From the NCBI GenBank assembly GCA_021432635.1, contig MU270117.1, positions 62,001 through 126,000 on the forward strand: 64,000 bases of DNA, written 5' to 3'. This document shows positions 43,349 to 60,384 of this stretch, piece after piece. Both the position numbers and the translations under genes were made by a program. This DNA comes from Thozetella sp. PMI_491. Lineage: Eukaryota > Ascomycota > Sordariomycetes > Chaetosphaeriales > Chaetosphaeriaceae. The first letter of the stretch is position 1, and each line of letters begins with the position of its first letter. The notes beneath the pieces are model-generated. The model saw only the letters and a program-made list of their open reading frames with translations, was not told the origin of the DNA and made no database searches.

Positions 43349-43428
43349 CACTCGACGTGGGACTCGAACCCACAGTCTTCTGATGGAGTCATTCCGCAGC
43401 TACTTAGTAGTAACTAGGAATCAGACGC
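43349..43428 (-). tRNA. tRNA-Arg(CCU)-like locus with intron, aberrant 5' part
   Basis: Read on the minus strand, the 3' part is a good tRNA. The anticodon stem TCTGA/TCAGA has loop TTCCTA|A (anticodon CCT) and a 30-base intron after position 37. Intron GGAA can pair with the loop TTCC, as in eukaryotic tRNA introns. The T arm is GTGGG-TTCGAGT-CCCAC, and the acceptor 3' strand GTCGAGT-G is followed by a T7 run (RNA polymerase III terminator). Upstream of TAAGGCGTC the sequence departs from tRNA-Arg. A D-arm-like CCTT/AAGG can be drawn, but the expected acceptor 5' strand (ACTCGAC or similar) is absent. The 5' part belongs to a repeat also found at 56.1-56.4 kb. It is probably a chimeric pseudo-tRNA. 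Confidence 0.55.
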
Positions 43429-43646
43429 CTTACCTGTGAAGGTGTTAGCGTCCTGACGCAGTACTAAAGACCACGAGAAGGATGAACGGACCATTAGGCC
43501 AGCCGAGCATGTTTGTATGTGTGCACGAAACTTTGCTGGGCTGCTGCCTTTTTAAGACTATAAATCTCTCTCAAAAGTGCGGGGTAGATGTGGGCAGAGG
43601 CACATGTGCGCACAGACTAAAACACTGTGTGTTAGTGACATATTTA
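43387..43646 (-). repeat. tRNA-linked dispersed repeat, copy A
   Basis: Read on the minus strand this ~260-base unit matches 56117-56377 on the plus strand. The shared blocks include TTAGTCTGTG...CACATGTGCCTCTGCC, TTTATAGTCTTAAAAA, TGGCCTAAT.GTCCGTT, GGTCTTTAGTACTG and GCTAACACCTTCACAGGTAA. It ends inside the tRNA-like intron. This copy is the more GC-rich of the two, so it is closer to the source sequence. It may be a SINE-like unit with a tRNA part, or a duplicated tRNA locus with its flank. Confidence 0.8.
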
Positions 43647-49059: not shown

Positions 49060-49556
49060 TGTCCTCCTCGTCTTCATCATGTGCGAGGAATAGCAGGTGC
49101 CGCAGTTTTCAGAATTCCCATGTACCTGTCTATATCGCTGTTACTGGCCCTCAGCTGTATATGCAGGGCGTCTTTCTCCTGTCCCTAGCGCCACATCCGG
49201 GCTGCCGCTTGCTCCTCGATGTTGGCGTTCCACTAGAGCTCCGTCTGGATGCCAATGTTGGCCTCCGTAATGTTCAGATCGTAGCCACCGGATGTTGCGG
49301 TCAAGAGGAGGGGCACGGTTGCGTCTGCGGTATTGAAGTCCTGCTGTACCATGTGCCTTCTTGCTTGAGATACGCTGCCGCCGTACCTGAGTGCCGTGAC
49401 GCCGAAATTGTGCCGCAGAGTTTCGGCAACGAAGCCGAGGAAGGGAAGTGACATAATCGTCTCTGTAGGATCCATCTTGCGCAGTGATATATAGGTGTCG
49501 AGAAACGCGACTAGTCGATCCGAGAATAGCGCACCGTCTGCAGCTTCACCAACCAT
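49060..49556 (-). pseudogene. SNF2-type helicase relic
   Basis: On the minus strand a 107-codon frame (49556-49233) carries the C-terminal lobe of an SNF2/Rad5-like ATPase. It has GVTALRYGGSVSQARR, then MVQQDFN and LLLTATSGGYDLNITEAN (motif V). A stop codon after IQTEL is followed in the same frame by WNANIEEQAAARMWR and another stop just before GQEKDALHIQL, the degenerate helicase motif VI (usually QA..R.hR.GQ.k). The N-terminal lobe is missing. With two stops and no ATPase lobe it cannot make a working remodeller. It is a host gene remnant, probably damaged by G-to-A changes (TGG to TAG fits the first stop). Confidence 0.75.
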
Positions 49557-50676: not shown

Positions 50677-52763
50677 TTAGACGATAAAGTCCTTGTTTCT
50701 CCTCGAACTCTCGTCATCGCCAGCGTCTGCTTCGTCTCCCTCGGGGAGCGTCGCTGGTTCGCCCAAGTCCTTCCTTCTGTCCAATGTGTTAGCCTTCTGT
50801 CTATCTCTGTAAATCTCATGCATCCCCAAAAATTTACGCTTCACGGGTGTACATGTAGGCCATCACTGATGTACTGATGATGGCTAGACCGCCGAATAGG
50901 ATGAGAATCTGATAACCGTATTTGTATCGAGGCGCATCGTAGGTTGGGAAGAGAGCCACTAGGAAGTCTCAGTCAATTTGGTCCACTGCAGGTACTGGAG
51001 TGATAATGCTTACGCGGCATCCAGAGTACGAAGGCATACGAGATAATGTTGGAGGTCGCGACGAGTAGCTGCCGCAGATTGGGATCGGCAGCATTGAGAT
51101 CGTTACCCCAGGCCTAGGATGCGTGTCAGTATCATGTCCCAAGAAGTTCGTATCTGTGTCTCGTGGTAAGAACTCACAATGAGCACGGGAGTGCCTGCAG
51201 ACCCTGCGTACGAGAGGTAGAAGGCAAAGAGGAGAGCGCTTTTGGGTAGGTTCCATACGGTCAGCAAGATATTGGAGAGCATCATGAGGGCCATTAGGCC
51301 ATTGATCAGCCAGAACCGATGGCCAAAGCGATCAGCCAGGATGCCCCAGACAATTGTGACAACGATGGCGAGAGCATTACCCGCGGTGGGTAGCACGTTG
51401 GTCTGGACGACGCTATATCCAGCCTTGGATAGATACAGGTTGAAGTAGCCCGTGGCCGTGTGGCATTGGGCGATCATCCTAGATTGTGAGGTTTAAGCAT
51501 TAGCTGTCTTGGCCCCCAATTTTGGTATGTCTCCCATGCCCCCTCTCAAGGAATTTACTCTCAGTTGCTGTTGCACGTACACGTATGGGACGACGAAAGC
51601 CCAGATCTTCCAGCTTCCGTAGACTTTCCTGATGACATTCCAGCTGAGCCGCACGGGTTCCCTGCGGCCCAGCCTCTCGATTCGCTCGACACCATACCGC
51701 TTCTCTTCCTCGGTCCAGTAGAAGGCCTTGGTGGTGTGCGGCAGATCAGGAATGCCGAATACTCCCCATATGGCTATGGGTATTGAGATAACACCATCCA
51801 TGATGAAGAGCCATCGCCACCCGGCGATGCCGTGCCGCCCGTTCATGCTCGAGTAGAGGCCTGCCTGAAGGTAGCCACTGAACATGCTGGCAATGGATTC
51901 GACCTCGAGCAGGATGGCCACGCGCTTGGTGAGCTCTTTGGGGCCATACCAGCCGCCAAGTAGAGCAATGTATCCGGGGAAGGCGCAAGCCTCGAGCAGG
52001 CCGATGAAGAAGCGAAGTACGTACATCTAAAGGGGCATTGGTGAGTTGCAAGCGCATAGCATCGGGCTGCCGTGTGCGGGGAGGGCATGGCATCGAGCGT
52101 ATGCTCACCGTCTCGATGTTCTTCGCTCCGGCCATACCCATCACCAAGGCAGACCAGGCCACCTCACAGGCCGGGATAAAATACGACGGCCGAGCCCAGC
52201 TAAGCTGGAACATCTGGGCCGGCACGGTGCCGATGATAATACCGAGACTAAACCAAGTGTTTAACCAGTTCCGCTCATTCCCGTAAAGTTGGAGCTACAT
52301 GGCTACTATCAGCCTTTCGGCCGCAATGGGTAGAGAAAGAAGTAAAGGCCGAGATATACACTCACATCTTGTTGCATGCCGCTGACGAATGCGTTGCCTG
52401 TGTTTAGAGGCGCCAAAGTTAGCAGTGTCCGACGTTCGCTAGCAGCTCCTCTCCACTCTTCCGATCGCTATCTCACTGTAATTCGTCTGGTCAAGGTATT
52501 TGATGAAATACCCTAGACAAATCGTCGGGCTGCACATGCCAGTTTGGTCAGCCAGGAGGGGTCGCAAATGTGCGAAGAGCCGGACGGCAGGCTCACAACA
52601 GGAAGCGGTCCAGTTTCTGGACATATCGCCGATTTTCGGGCTCGCCTTCGACTGAGTCCCAGACATATCCCACGATGTGACGCCACCACGACGTCTCCGT
52701 GGCTTCCCTGGCAGCGGTGTCTTCCGCAACTTGCACGGAGTCGACCTGCTTCGTCGTTGCCAT
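50677..52763 (-). CDS. MFS permease, DAL5/Liz1-type anion:cation symporter
   Basis: Nine exons on the minus strand: 52763-52597, 52529-52477, 52397-52366, 52294-52109, 52026-51581, 51478-51178, 51113-51014, 50958-50853 and 50806-50677, giving 506 residues, usual for the family. A cytosolic leader (WDSVEGEPENRRYVQKLDRF) precedes PTICLGYFIKYLDQTNYSNA and FVSGMQQDLQLYGN, the family signature. About 12 membrane helices follow, including FSLGIIIGTVPAQMF, RFFIGLLEACAFPGYIALLG and NALAIVVTIVWGILADRFGH. The family imports organic anions such as allantoate, nicotinate or pantothenate; the substrate here is unknown. The last intron is only 46 bases (GTACAC...TTTACAG). If it is retained the protein stops at 50834 with 469 residues. 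The gene is divergent from the solute-binding gene across an ~800-base region with two GATA sites. Confidence 0.87.
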
Positions 52764-53570
52764 CTTGACAACTTGGTTGGCTAGCACGCAGGACGAGAAG
52801 GAGAGGCAGAAGATTGAGCGGATAGAAGACCCAAGACCGGCAGGACGCGATGAAAGGGGGGGGGGAGGCTCGGCCAAACGTACTCCGTATGTATATGCGG
52901 GAGTCCAACCTTATGCGACGAGAGGCATACAGGCGTCCTACTAGGACCAACCGACTGGGATGAACGCCCGGGAGACTGGCCTTTGAGATAACGCCATACC
53001 GAGCTCCGATGGCACATGCAGCTCTCGTTCTACACTGGAATAGTGCGGTGGGCGGATGGGGCCGATAAGAAGACGCAGCGGGAGGGGCGTTCCGGTAACG
53101 ACCAATTCAAGCCGCCCAGGCCTATCAGGCACCCTGCCCTGGCTTGCCCGTCGTGCGTGCCTGGGGCCCTCCTTTCCACTGTGTATGGAGACCGAGGCCC
53201 GCCCCAGCGGGGCTATGGAGTAGCCTCCGCCCGTGTGCGTACCGCCGCTTGCCCGGGAAGGACAGGGTGAATCCGCCAACGGCCGCCGCACCCTATCCAC
53301 AGCCGAACAGGTCCTCCACTCGAGTCCCTCGGTGCTGCGGGGATAGAACGGAGGAAGGGTTTCCGCCGGACGCTGACAGGCCCTTTCTCTTCACTTGCGC
53401 TACACAGGCGACCACAATAATAGCTTCTCCCGTGCAAGCAGGCTTGTCAAGTTCCACGAGGGGGCGAAGGGGCTCCCGCGCCAGCCGTTGAGATTTCTTC
53501 CTCGCGGCTTACTGGGGAATCCGCAACGAGCCGTTGAAGCATAAGGATACCACTTGCCCCAACAACGCCC
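52764..53570. promoter_or_regulatory. Shared divergent promoter, permease / solute-binding protein
   Basis: The 807 bases between two divergent start codons must hold both promoters. GATA sites of the AreA/NIT2 type are seen at 52986-52991 (AGATAA) and 53063-53069 (CGATAAG). Two such sites can occur by chance. No coding frame with a domain is present. Confidence 0.45.
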
Positions 53571-55004
53571 ATGCCCCCCATGGCCTCGGCCCCAGACGCT
53601 GCCCTCCGGGTGAGCCTCGAAAAGGTAGACTTTCGGCATCCGACCCAGGTCACCGATGACAGCAGTGTGCTCACCTTGAAGAACCTGATCTCTGAGCCCC
53701 TGCTCCGCTGGCAGCCCGGCGGTCTCGTCCAGGCAGGCCTGTTCGACCGTTGGGTCCACTCCTCCGACGGCCGCCGGTGGTGCTTCTTCATCCGCGAGGG
53801 CGCCGTGTTCCACGACGGTAAGCCCTGCGTGGCCGAGGATGTGACCGCCTTTATATCCGCCATCCTAGAATCACGCGACAGTTTCGGTATGCGGTGGAGT
53901 TACCATCGATACCTCTCGCGGGCTCGCATCACCGCAATGGATACGCGGGCTGTCACGGTCGAGAACCCGGAGCCACTAGCAGACATTCTGGACATATTCA
54001 CCGAGTTTTACGTCTGCCGGATCGCCTTGGACGGGTCTCCGGTCCTCGGGACTGGCAGATATCGGGTTTCGTACTTTGACCGGGAGGGAGGCACGGCGGT
54101 GCTAGACCACACGGCCCCAGCAGGCGCGCCCCTTAGCCCGCCACGCATCATTGCCACGGCAGAGCCCTGCGCACGGAAGCGCTTGGAGCAGCTGTGCCAC
54201 GGCGTGGTCGACGTCGCGCTGAATCTAGAGCGGGCCCCTGGGCCGCTGACTTATGACCCGGCTCTGCAGTGGAAGAAAACAACCACGACGCTCTCCGTCA
54301 TCTACTATCTCGACTGTACCAGCGGGCCGTTTAGCTCGCCCGCGGCTCGCCTGGCTGTAAACCATGCACTTGATGCCGCGGAGCTCTCCCAAGAGGTCTT
54401 TCATGGGCTCGCCGTCCCGGCCTCCACAGTCGTAAGCCCATTCCACCTCGGCGGGCGCCGCTCAGCGTTTCCACCCATCCCCTATGATCCAGGCGAGGCT
54501 CGCCGCTTGCTTGCTGTGGCGGGCGTCGACACTAGCGTACCCATAGTCCTGCGCACCCCGACGACTATGCCGGAGCGGGCAGAGGAGATCACCGAGTTCG
54601 TAGCCAGGTCGCTAGAGGCGGTCGGTCTGCGTGTCGTGGTGGAGGTGGAGGAGGACCGACGCCAGTATGCACGGCAGGTCGGACTAGAAAAATCCATTGG
54701 CGACCTAGCGCTCTTCGACAGCTCACCGAATAGCACTTACCGTGTTCTGAACGACAAGATCTCGAGTACAGCGAAGGGAGTCTGGTGGCAAGGCTACGAG
54801 GACGCCAAGGCAGAGGAGATGATCACCGTAGCGAACCGGGCAGTAGAGAGCCAGGAAAGAGAGTTAGCATACTCCCGGTGCCTGAAGCGACTGAGGGACA
54901 ACCCGCCATGGCTGTACGTGGTGCATCCCATCGTGGTCATGGCGGCGCGGGGGGGTATCGAGGGAGTGTGTATAGATCATAAAGGCATGTTGGTCGTTAG
55001 CTAA
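53571..55004 (+). CDS. Bacterial-type family 5 solute-binding protein (SBP_bac_5)
   Basis: Intronless, 477 residues. It matches the OppA/DppA class of periplasmic binding proteins: NLISEPLLRWQPGGLVQAGL, then DGRRWCFFIREGAVFHDGKP and VAEDVTAFISAILESRDS at the N-lobe. GTGRYRVSYFDREGG sits at the usual GTGPY position. The later part has ARLAVNHALDAAELSQEVFH, GLAVPASTVVSPFHLGG, YDPGEARRLLAVAGVD and a C-terminal hinge segment. In bacteria these proteins bind peptides, nickel or oligosaccharides for an ABC importer. Fungi lack such importers. There is no signal peptide (start MPPMASAPDAALRV), so a cytosolic binding, sensing or enzymatic role is more likely. The absence of introns beside intron-rich neighbours fits bacterial origin. 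The MFS gene next door is divergently transcribed, so the two may be co-regulated. Confidence 0.88.
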   Translation: MPPMASAPDAALRVSLEKVDFRHPTQVTDDSSVLTLKNLISEPLLRWQPGGLVQAGLFDRWVHSSDGRRWCFFIREGAVFHDGKPCVAEDVTAFISAILESRDSFGMRWSYHRYLSRARITAMDTRAVTVENPEPLADILDIFTEFYVCRIALDGSPVLGTGRYRVSYFDREGGTAVLDHTAPAGAPLSPPRIIATAEPCARKRLEQLCHGVVDVALNLERAPGPLTYDPALQWKKTTTTLSVIYYLDCTSGPFSSPAARLAVNHALDAAELSQEVFHGLAVPASTVVSPFHLGGRRSAFPPIPYDPGEARRLLAVAGVDTSVPIVLRTPTTMPERAEEITEFVARSLEAVGLRVVVEVEEDRRQYARQVGLEKSIGDLALFDSSPNSTYRVLNDKISSTAKGVWWQGYEDAKAEEMITVANRAVESQERELAYSRCLKRLRDNPPWLYVVHPIVVMAARGGIEGVCIDHKGMLVVS

Positions 55005-55089
55005 CCTAGGAACGAATCATTCAACCTCATTGCTTCTACAAGCCCTGGGGGCTACCCACAAGACAGCTATGCTTATACAATACAACCCC
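55005..55089. other. 3' flank of the solute-binding gene
   Basis: This short stretch runs from the stop codon to the clear start of the dispersed repeat. Weak similarity to the outer side of the second repeat copy (a TACAAGCC and an ATGCTT block) suggests that the repeat may begin here already. Confidence 0.4.
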
Positions 55090-55410
55090 CGTTTGTTTGT
55101 TAGCGTGGGGATTAAAAAGCCAATATTTTCATAAGAAAAGCAATTGGCCCAGATAAAGGGGAGTTTACAAGGCCAAGAGGGATCGAAATGGCCCAGCGGG
55201 GAAGCACAAGGAGCCACAAGGGCCAACAAGGAGCCAAAAGGGCCAACAAGGAGCCAAAAGGGCCAACAAAGGGCTAGAGGGGCTAATAAGGAGCTAAATC
55301 GGCTAAGAACAAGGCTGTAGGGCTGGTTACAGCCTTCAAGCTCTCATGTCTTGCCCTCTGTATTGTACCAAGCTCACAATCATACAAGGGGCGAATTGTA
55401 TTTACCCCAG
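55090..55410 (+). repeat. Dispersed repeat, left arm of an inverted pair
   Basis: It matches the minus strand of 59868-60160. The order of shared blocks is TTTGTTAGC, GGGGAGTTTAC, CAGCGGGGA, a short tandem of GCCAACAAGGAGCCAAAAGG units (55219-55270), then AAGGAGCTAAATCGGCTAAG, TGTAGGGCTGGTTAC, CTTCAAGCTCTCATGTCTTG and TATTGTACCAAGCTCACAAT. The unit starts close to a TGTTAG and passes a CATACA, which would suit a fungal LTR, but no internal element genes are seen. It may be an old solo-LTR-like fossil or a MITE-like unit. Confidence 0.8.
55215..55275 (+). repeat. 21-base minisatellite within the repeat
   Basis: About three near-identical copies of a GCCAACAAGGAGCCAAAAGG-type unit are followed by decayed copies up to about 55300. 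The inverted partner at 60 kb has about two copies, so the array has changed in length since the copies split. Confidence 0.85.
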
Positions 55411-55708: not shown

Positions 55709-56202
55709 ATGGCGTCCATCAGCAACCAAAGAGATGGCGACCAGGACCGCGAGGAGCCCGTGCCTGAGCCCGGCGTTGACGCAACGAAGACCGCCGTATG
55801 GATGCACATTCGTCACCTGGAGACTCTCAACTCAGTGGAGAAGGTAGGACTCTGTCTGGTATTGACCGACCTTGGCGGCTGCTGATGCGAGGATAAGCCC
55901 TCTTGAACAACCAGGCCGTGATCGCCGCCCAGCTCAACAAACTGACGGAGCTCGTTCATGCCATCGATCTCAAGCTGCCGTCGCGCTCAGAGCTGATGAA
56001 GAACAAGCGACGTTCTTCCGCGGCCTCGATCGCTTCTTCGGGCAACGTCGACGAAGAGAGCATTGTCAGCGGTCCTGAGGACGAGGGGGTCGTGATAGAG
56101 GTGGGCAACCAAGACAGCATATCATTAACACACAGTGGTTTAGTCTGTGTGCACATGTGCCTCTGCCTGCCTTTACCCTGTACTTTTATGGGATATTTAT
56201 AG
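55709..56202 (+). CDS. Hypothetical protein whose C terminus runs into a repeat
   Basis: Two exons, 55709-55843 and 55915-56202, give 140 residues. The first part is acidic and hydrophilic (MASISNQRDGDQDREEPVPE); a helical region follows across the splice (TAVWMHIRHLETLNSVEK|AVIAAQLNKLTELVHAIDLK), then a basic Ser-rich linker (KNKRRSSAASIASSGNVDEE) and an acidic segment ending VVIEVGNQDS. From about 56117 the DNA is the tRNA-linked repeat, so the last ~28 residues (ISLTHSGL onward) are repeat-derived and Cys-rich. The original gene was probably longer and lost its 3' end when the repeat arrived. No family is recognised. The clean intron suggests that it was a real gene. Confidence 0.6.
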
Positions 56203-56377
56203 TCTTAAAAAAAAGGAGCGGCCCTAGTATAGTTTATGCATATATATAAATATGCTCAGCTGGCCTAATAGTCCGTTTATATCCTTCTCATGGTCTTTAG
56301 TACTGTGTCAGGGCGCTAACACCTTCACAGGTAAGGCGTCTGATTCTTAGTTACTCCTAAGTAGCTGTAGAATGACT
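56117..56377 (+). repeat. tRNA-linked dispersed repeat, copy B (A/T-shifted)
   Basis: This is homologous to the minus strand of 43387-43646. Most differences are C-to-T or G-to-A relative to copy A (for example TTCCTAG to TTCTTAG, GCGGAATG to GTAGAATG, CTCGTGG to CTCATGG), a pattern like repeat-induced point mutation. Homology stops right after GAATGACT, within two or three bases of the tRNA-like intron's 3' end. The tRNA 3' half is missing here, and so is the Pol III terminator. Confidence 0.82.
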
Positions 56378-57716
56378 TGACATCTGATGTTAGAAGTAAA
56401 GATAAGCTGCGTTAAGAGAGAGAGGTATATCTATATCTATATAAGGAGGGAAAGATGAGAGGTGAAGAGACAGGGTAGAAGGCGAGATGGCGATAGGAAG
56501 GCCCGTGCGGGGGGAGGGGGGAGAAGGGGGGGCCATCCAAGACTGAATGGCTTTCAAGCCAGAACCAGAGCCAGAACAAGCACTAATGAGAGATCAAATA
56601 TCCAGCCTAGCTTGGCTACTGCAACTCTTCTATGTGTCCCCATGGCTAAGTAGTCGAATATCATGGTCAATGCTAAGGGACGACAGGCCAGATTTGTTCT
56701 TAGACCATGGTAGACAGTAGTGGTTTGGAGAACAAATTGACAAGCTAGATTTGTTTTTAAACCGCAGTAGATAGTAGTGTTTTGGAAAAAAAAAGAGTCA
56801 AGATGGGCAGATAGCTACAAGCCACGACATGCAAATTCCCAAGTGCTAGATGGCATGCGCAACGCCTCACTTGTCGACAAGGCATATTTTCTTCTCAGAC
56901 CGTGGTGGCTCGGAGACAACAAATCGACAAGCTAGATTTGTTCTTAGACAGCTATGGTCTGAGGGAAACAAATCATCAAAGTAGGATTTGTTGCCAAATT
57001 GTCAACTCACTCCCCCTCGCCCCACGGGGCGTTCCCTCTGAAAAGATTATCAGTTGCATCAAGTATGCATTGCATTGTGTTTGTCATGTGTCTGCCGGTC
57101 CCCCCTTGTTTCTTCCCTCCATCATTTTCGTCTTGTCCCTCTGTAGCCGAAACACTTTGTAAGGCACTATGCTTAACTCAAGGCTTTAAGGAGCATGTTA
57201 GATCTCACTTTGGTAATGATTAGCGCTCAGTGCGGTTGGCTGGCCGGCACTCACACATACACATGCACACGCATAACACAGCTAGATAACCACGGCGAGG
57301 ATCCGATGAACTCGTTAAAACCCAGGTCTAGCACAGGGCCTCACAAGGCAGCTCCTCCGGTTTCCCTGGGACTCAGTCCCGCATACCCCTCCGCATTATG
57401 ACTGGGTACCTACGTAGACCAGCATTCTATAGTTGACAATGATCACATAAAGTATATGCATCTTGTGAAATTGAAGAGAGGGTATCTATGATAACTGCAA
57501 GGCTAAAAAAAACACAATAAATCAGAACACGGTTGGGGGAAACTCATGTTCCCCAGTCCCGTCCGCCCCCCACCACTTTAAACCAGAACCATAGGTCGTA
57601 CCTTTCCAGTGGTAGGGGCCTGGGATTGTCTACTGGTTGACCTGATGCTCCGATTGATCCCGTGGACCTGCTCCAAGACCGAGCCGACATATCTGGCAAA
57701 CAGGGCCACGCCTGAC
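56378..57716. other. A/T-rich, repeat-laden spacer
   Basis: No supported gene is seen. The stretch holds ATCTATATCTATAT microsatellite DNA near 56428-56442, a G/A-rich stretch at 56505-56535, and degenerate palindromic units at 56683-57000 (listed separately). Confidence 0.5.
56683..57000. repeat. Degenerate units with ACAAAT...ATTTGT palindromes
   Basis: At 56732, 56918 and 56968 there are variants of ACAAATNGACAAGCTAGATT followed by TGT and a TTCTTAGAC-like tail, whose ends pair as an inverted repeat. A partial unit starts near 56683. Between them lie variants of ACCATGGTAGACAGTAGTGG. They look like decayed, nested copies of one small unit. Confidence 0.7.
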
Positions 57717-59867: not shown

Positions 59868-60160
59868 AGCCTAAATACAAAATTAACAAAATACAACTCA
59901 CCCCCCGTATGATTGTGAGCTTGGTACAATATAGAGGCTGGCAAGACATGAGAGCTTGAAGGCCAGTAACCAGCCCTACAGGCTTGTTCTTAGCCGATTT
60001 AGCTCCTTACTTGCCCTCTTCGCTCCTTGTTGGTCCTTTTGGCTCCTTGTTGGCCCTTGTGGCTCCCCGCTGGCTCCGTAAACTCCCCTGTATCTGGTTC
60101 AAATGCTTTTTAAGACAGTGACCTTGTCATTCCCAGGCTAACAAATAAACAGGGGACATA
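59868..60160 (-). repeat. Dispersed repeat, right arm of an inverted pair
   Basis: The minus strand matches 55090-55410 over nearly its whole length, with small insertions and a shorter minisatellite. Substitutions and length differences are scattered, so the two copies are not recent. The pair could form a long stem and could recombine to invert the ~4.5-kb segment between them. Confidence 0.8.
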
Positions 60161-60384
60161 TTCTATCCGAAGAAGCATTAAATTTATATCGTTCTTGTAG
60201 CTCTGCCGTACTCTCAGGCTTGTATACGGAATAAGGGGCATGATAGAGAATACGAGCGCGCTTCCAGTTTCCCGCTTGATCCCGGCGTGAATATCTTACA
60301 GCGATCCTAACCTACTAGCCATGGCTCCTATATGCCTCCTACCCACTGCCCACTATTTGGAAGATTATTTTGGGGAATAACCAG
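60161..60384. other. Hydrophilin 3' flank
   Basis: A short A/T-rich stretch lies between the repeat and the stop codon of the hydrophilin gene. It holds the 3' UTR and perhaps the outer end of the repeat. Confidence 0.4.

Follow-up and report, generated by a model that had tools for sequence, protein, structure and literature searches.

A solute-binding-protein-fold gene of probable alphaproteobacterial origin in the fungus Thozetella sp. PMI_491

We analysed 64,000 nucleotides from Thozetella sp. PMI_491 (the window, to which all positions refer) and found that one of its genes encodes a protein which, by sequence, is an orthologue of an alphaproteobacterial solute-binding protein (SBP) without an export signal. 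The gene was almost certainly acquired by horizontal transfer from a bacterium to the fungus. The best explanation of the whole, which we hold with somewhat more belief than doubt, is that the transferred gene encodes a cytosolic SBP-fold protein that handles an imported compound or an intermediate.

The gene and its fungal surroundings

The reading frame runs from an ATG start to a TAA stop through 477 codons and zero introns (Table 1). Its product matches Pfam SBP_bac_5 (PF00496) with E = 4.5e-36 and 125.2 bits against a cut-off of 32.4 and, judged by its sequence, is a member of this family. Thus the intronless gene and signal-less SBP_bac_5 product described in the earlier note were both recovered. 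Searching the PDB by sequence gave 43 distinct matches at E ≤ 0.01, by name nickel-, peptide-, heme- or other binding proteins, with a few carrying a gene name only. An AlphaFold model reached a mean pLDDT of 68 and a pTM of 0.70 and is poor at residues 384–407, within the most conserved region. Because this quality is only fair, we relied on the model for the fold alone and did not read the pocket from it. When compared to the PDB with Foldseek, the predicted structure was most similar to E. coli YliB (E 3.9e-31, TM-score 0.66), with TM-scores of only about 0.57–0.72 among the best 50 rows. An alternative model made from the orthologues only was worse (pLDDT 59) and was set aside. The protein has its domain and predicted fold in common with NikA, GsiB/YliB, DppA, HbpA and AgaA, but differs from them in having no signal peptide.

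Table 1 Features of the window around the SBP-fold gene
Feature	Position	Strand	Description
SBP-fold gene	53571..55004	+	intronless, 477 aa, probably cytosolic, SBP_bac_5 fold, probable alphaproteobacterial origin
MFS transporter gene	50677..52763	-	9 exons, spliced by eye; head-to-head with the SBP-fold gene; MFS_1 4.2e-17
Intergenic region	52764..53570	.	807 bp between the divergent start codons of the MFS and SBP-fold genes
Repeat, MITE-like (our label)	55075..55403	.	starts about 70 bp past the SBP-fold stop codon
Second copy of this repeat	59889..60166		inverted; 87.1% over 186 and 73.4% over 94 alignment columns
Minisatellite	55206..55298		20-bp unit, within the left repeat copy
Dispersed 260-bp repeat	56119..56377 and 43387..43641		84.6% identical, opposite orientation
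57-bp tandem unit	56682..56793		2 copies; further partial copy at 56897..56952
Helicase_C match	about 49182..49439	-	6.3e-07, in a GC-poorer stretch

Upstream lies the neighbour to which nine exons had been ascribed, and removal of its GT-AG introns by eye indeed yields nine exons and a single open frame ending in TAA. We take this MFS gene to resemble the Dal5/Liz1 group; a PDB search with one of its exons gave no match. The region between the two divergent genes is possibly a shared promoter, and a functional link between them is our guess from their position. On the other side, the inverted repeat copies could be two MITE-like copies or both ends of one element. They enclose a 4.5-kb stretch, in which the gene is presumably a GDSL-like lipase. 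The window also contains the dispersed and tandem repeats listed in Table 1, and a Helicase_C match which is possibly part of a gene or of a degraded element.

The earlier note proposed comparing GC3 and codon use. GC3 did not discriminate, being 0.73 in the SBP-fold gene and 0.67–0.77 in four rhizobial orthologues. Codon use was scored as a per-codon log-likelihood ratio of window stretches versus rhizobial genes. The SBP-fold gene scored +0.058 per codon, within the +0.046 to +0.111 of seven other stretches of the window, each left out of its own reference; these are long open frames taken as genes, and the gene names attached to them are assumed. All 44 bacterial relatives scored from -0.033 to -0.147, some of them coming from loci that fed the bacterial reference, and the score was below zero in each of the 30 bacterial genes printed. 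By this measure, the gene has ameliorated toward fungal codon use. Together with the spliced neighbour and the repeat copies, this places the gene as a resident of the fungal chromosome.

Relatives in alphaproteobacteria

We compared the fungal protein to 72,556 plasmid records by tblastn, of which 591 matched. Among the best 40 of these 591, the top seven are 57–60% identical over 97–99% of the query, six being named as Rhizobiaceae (Rhizobium, Neorhizobium, Allorhizobium) and one as Terrarubrum, while rank 8 (Alloyangia) has 45% and rank 9 falls to 33%. A genome scan gave four loci with 60, 58, 57 and 51% identity. In these four genomes the orthologue matches at E 1.5e-184 to 1.2e-149 and the next-best SBP at 7e-18, and this wide gap marks a sharp orthologue group inside a large family. 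Matches at E ≤ 1e-40, which include some of the 31–36% outgroup, were found in 6 of 397 genomes from the order of genome G001, 4 of 398 from its phylum, 20 of 394 from its family and 13 of 200 from the order of the Roseomonas genome G004. Bacterial phyla beyond these samples were covered through the plasmid collection only. The orthologue is a patchy accessory gene. Two scans of a viral collection gave no relative.

A tree of 45 proteins was calculated: the fungal one, 34 bacterial orthologues and ten proteins as outgroup. The orthologues and the fungal protein together separate from the outgroup at 100/100. This clade, and a full-length match far above the paralogues, indicate orthology. Within it, nine rhizobial proteins join the fungal one at 94/63, of which the second value is weak; a branch at 76/75 sets these nine apart from the rest. 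At 0.67 changes per site the fungal branch is long, and the program flagged it as unsure. An AU test did not reject a position of the single fungal sequence outside all 34 orthologues (p = 0.58), and the best tree under this constraint even surpassed the free one by 1.82 log units. That the relatives are alphaproteobacterial is well supported by these sequences, with the exact branch left unfixed by the tree. We infer the direction of transfer from the relatives, which were seen only in bacteria and came from bacterial collections. The bacterial-to-fungal transfer proposed in the earlier note agrees with the 57–60% identity to rhizobial proteins, the 100/100 clade and the fungal codon use.

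The export signal appears to be absent from the fungal protein and from its bacterial orthologues alike. The fungal N-terminus, MPPMASAPDAALRVSLEKVDF, has no hydrophobic core, and the best 11-residue hydropathy in its first 30 residues is 0.61, versus 2.35–2.73 in five signal-peptide SBPs of the bacterial operons. The 44 bacterial relatives range from 0.08 to 1.69 as parsed, each start being taken automatically as whichever ATG, GTG or TTG lay closest upstream. Five had no such upstream codon, and there the first aligned residue was taken; the parsed start of one (L009) is probably too far upstream. In 20 of the 34 orthologues at most 24 codons separate the in-frame stop from the first aligned residue, leaving little or no space for a signal peptide; in the other 14 the frame is open further upstream, and the signal was scored at the nearest start only.

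These observations alter one part of the earlier account, in which the missing signal peptide was read as domestication after transfer. Since the bacterial orthologues show no signal peptide either, its absence does not speak for domestication in the fungus, and we rejected loss of the signal there. The cytosolic role other than ABC import, also proposed in that account, stands, though not with signal loss in the fungus as its reason.

Neighbourhood, conserved residues and possible function

Neighbourhoods were drawn for 31 of the 34 orthologues and 9 of the 10 outgroup proteins. In 20 of the 31 orthologue loci, the order is SBP, permease B, permease C, signal-less SBP, VOC protein and a protein with a C-terminal FGE/SUMF1-like domain. 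The signal-less protein is here a second SBP, next to an importer having its own (signal peptide checked in five). Rhodanese is upstream in 18 of these 20 importer-type loci. The drawn stretch also has an Asp/Glu/hydantoin racemase in 17, a fused ABC ATPase in 16, an amidohydrolase in 14, a GntR regulator in 12 and a DapA-like gene in 6, several stretches ending short of these positions. Of three loci extended upstream, two have, beyond the DapA-like gene, first an SDR and then a C-S lyase of the PatB family; neither the SDR nor the lyase was seen in the third (L091). The lyase scored 416 and 418 bits with TIGR04350 in the two operons scanned, above the cut-off of 340, and the same type was matched in one further drawn locus (L058).

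The best curated match of the amidohydrolase is ErtD (NF058538), the hydantoin-5-propionate amidohydrolase of ergothioneine utilisation, at 499–510 bits for three full-length copies and 343.6 bits for a fourth cut at the locus end. The cut-off of this equivalog is 600, and by this test the operon enzyme is not ErtD itself and the operon does not qualify as the Ert pathway. Similarly, the rhodanese scored 101 with the 3-mercaptopyruvate sulfurtransferase model against a cut-off of 250. As both scores are under their cut-offs, the operon pathway is named by likeness only. An NCBIfam scan of one member of the orthologue group gave no family above cut-off, and among the papers listed by searches on the operon's pathway we recognised none as a description of it.

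The remaining 11 of the 31 loci are without the operon's importer, one from the order of G001 and 10 of the 12 drawn from the order of G004. Rhodanese is present in four and the VOC gene in two of these 11, some of which are on short contigs, down to 8.5 kb. Six have ABC components of other systems, weakly similar (25–33%), in the drawn stretch. In L080, L081, L082 and L085 rhodanese adjoins the orthologue, with the VOC gene kept in L080 and L085. A common neighbour family occurs in L081, L082, L085 and L086; its one scanned member, from L082, matches allantoinase PuuE at 92 bits, below the cut-off of 425. In the outgroup loci, the distant relative is near ABC permeases and a VOC protein in 8 of 9 (25–50% to the references), and racemase, DapA-like gene and SDR are found in 7 of 9.

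The FGE/SUMF1-domain protein of the operon was located in three loci (L005 10802–12850, L006 11772–13859, L003 6526–8685). Its N-terminal part has a P-loop-like GETGSGKTT motif, read by eye in L005, and an nSTAND3 match in L006 is weak and below cut-off. An anti-phage role for this NTPase-FGE gene was considered and rejected, the PADLOC matches being weak only.

Searching the window with the bacterial operon proteins, ErtD-like amidohydrolase included, gave no match beyond the SBPs; the operons' other SBPs (~25% identity) land on the same fungal gene. Co-transferred operon genes were not found within the window. The fungal gene differs from those of its bacterial group in standing alone beside an MFS gene.

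The conserved residues of the family were well retained. The fungal protein keeps 74 of the 76 columns that are invariant in the 34 orthologues, the exceptions being residues 23 and 364, and all 33 that do not vary among the 44 bacterial proteins. When, as a control, each of the 34 bacterial proteins was left out in turn, retention had a median of 1.0 and was never below 0.938. Polar or aromatic residues are frequent among the 33 (H81, D82, R204, R260, H292, R363, Y366, D383, S384, R391, K396, W405, W406 and W447), a pattern compatible with a demanding pocket or active site. The NDPD region contacts peptide ligands in DppA-like proteins. Three signal-peptide SBPs of the operons have a longer segment with NDPD, whereas the corresponding segment of the fungal protein and of four orthologues is shorter, with the conserved motif FDSSP-ST-R-L-DK-SS. 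The ligand of the signal-less family is thus probably unlike that of the operons' other SBPs.

To our knowledge, fungi have no ABC importers of the kind that such proteins serve, and the fungal protein has neither the export or lipoprotein signal of an ABC-importer binding protein nor, within the window, adjoining permeases or ATPases. The signal-less SBP stays with catabolic genes, accompanies a separate signal-bearing SBP and is kept where the importer is absent, which argues that it is not the importer's binding protein. A cytosolic, non-transport role is very probable on these grounds. It also seems older than the transfer, because the orthologues are signal-less and, in the 20 loci, adjoin the importer's separate SBP.

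We propose that the donor was an alphaproteobacterium, probably Hyphomicrobiales-like, whose gene would have entered the fungus by horizontal transfer and remained there long enough for its codon use to become fungal, with the conserved core retained. The product would be a cytosolic protein with a two-lobed solute-binding-protein fold. Already in the donor lineage it would have lacked an export signal and been encoded beside a dipeptide/nickel-type ABC importer with a separate SBP gene. The nearby donor enzymes point to catabolism of an imported compound, a hydantoin-like cyclic amide that possibly bears sulfur, and in donor and fungus alike the protein may bind this compound or an intermediate inside the cell and then hand it on or convert it. 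We infer the cytosolic location, the ligand class and the choice between binding and catalysis. The ligand is likely a hydantoin-type cyclic amide, and the C-S lyase and rhodanese of the operon suggest sulfur in it. That the protein is an enzyme rather than a carrier or sensor is a tentative reading, to which we give a little less than even weight. More speculative, and in our judgement rather unlikely, is that the orthologue group forms an undescribed family of cytosolic SBP-fold enzymes for the breakdown of sulfur-bearing cyclic amides, used stand-alone by the fungus with its own MFS importer.

Alternatives, precedents and meaning

Several other explanations were weighed. An intronless, bacterial-like gene with a GC3 inside the range of the four rhizobial orthologues could be a bacterial contaminant or an assembly chimaera, a possibility also raised in the earlier note as a refutation of transfer. 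However, a spliced fungal MFS gene is found 807 bp upstream, a repeat that occurs twice in the window starts about 70 bp downstream and codon use differs from that of all 44 bacterial relatives. Permease and VOC genes flank the orthologue in 20 of the 31 bacterial loci, yet no operon neighbour accompanies it here. We give contamination hardly any credence. The gene could instead be a pure relic, intact through recency and idle in the fungus. This would suit the lack of introns and the presence of a single operon gene in the window, and an unsampled donor could explain part of the divergence. Yet the acquisition of fungal-side codon use needs time, over which the 477-codon frame has remained open and 74 of the 76 invariant columns have been kept, and we regard an idle relic as improbable.

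Two alternatives concern the role of a functional protein. Since the fold is that of extracellular binding proteins, the product might be secreted unconventionally as a ligand scavenger; with an export signal absent by sequence from the fungal protein and, as parsed, from the 44 bacterial relatives, this seems very improbable. A cytosolic sensor, in the form of a ligand-binding regulator resembling the C-terminal domain of SgrR, has a precedent, as SgrR carries a cytosolic SBP_bac_5 domain; the fungal protein gave no significant match with the SgrR model (E 0.19). Against a sensor, no DNA-binding or signalling domain was found in the fungal protein, and a separate GntR regulator is present in the drawn stretch of 12 of the 20 importer-type operons. 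We consider a sensor unlikely. The cytosolic protein that binds or converts an imported compound or an intermediate is the reading we prefer.

Thi5 and thiaminase I belong to SBP families other than SBP_bac_5. Both are described as enzymes that are fold-related to periplasmic binding proteins, Thi5 being a yeast protein and a homologue of the binding protein ThiY (PMC5627462). They offer, by analogy, a precedent for an SBP-type fold in enzymes, catalysis by the fungal protein being putative. A second comparison is with genes LGT12 and LGT15 of Penicillium, the former presumably of the opine type that occurs in Agrobacterium-like bacteria. Table 1 of PMC9893605 lists LGT12 as an intronless NADP octopine/nopaline dehydrogenase and LGT15 as an intronless bacterial-like SBP gene with 60% identity to bacteria, in one genome. 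As described there, LGT15 averages 278 aa, compared to 477 here (PMC9893605). The two are compared by description only, and LGT15 may belong to another SBP family. Other eukaryotic SBP domains are fused into membrane proteins and are of SBP_bac_1 and other families, as reported for receptor-like membrane proteins of Plasmodiophora (PMC4815078); a fungal survey lists such domains for GPCR-like proteins (PMC3251606). An SBP is mentioned for Fusarium oxysporum f. sp. medicaginis (PMC5094085). Bacterial gene transfer to fungi is common, with 20,093 genes in 750 of 829 genomes by the count given in PMC11708051, and the transfer itself is therefore ordinary. Further published reports of SBPs in fungi may exist.

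The unusual point is which protein was transferred: one that by type belongs to an import system, in an organism not known to have importers of this sort. Its survival in the fungus is explicable, as the protein seems to have been intracellular already in the donor. What looked odd can thereby be tested, as an SBP-fold family whose function in alphaproteobacteria would lie outside transport. The enzyme-family reading takes in the relatives from the order of the Roseomonas genome, most of which retain the protein in the absence of the operon's ABC importer; if that reading were true, a bacterial transporter fold would have been reused as metabolism across kingdoms.
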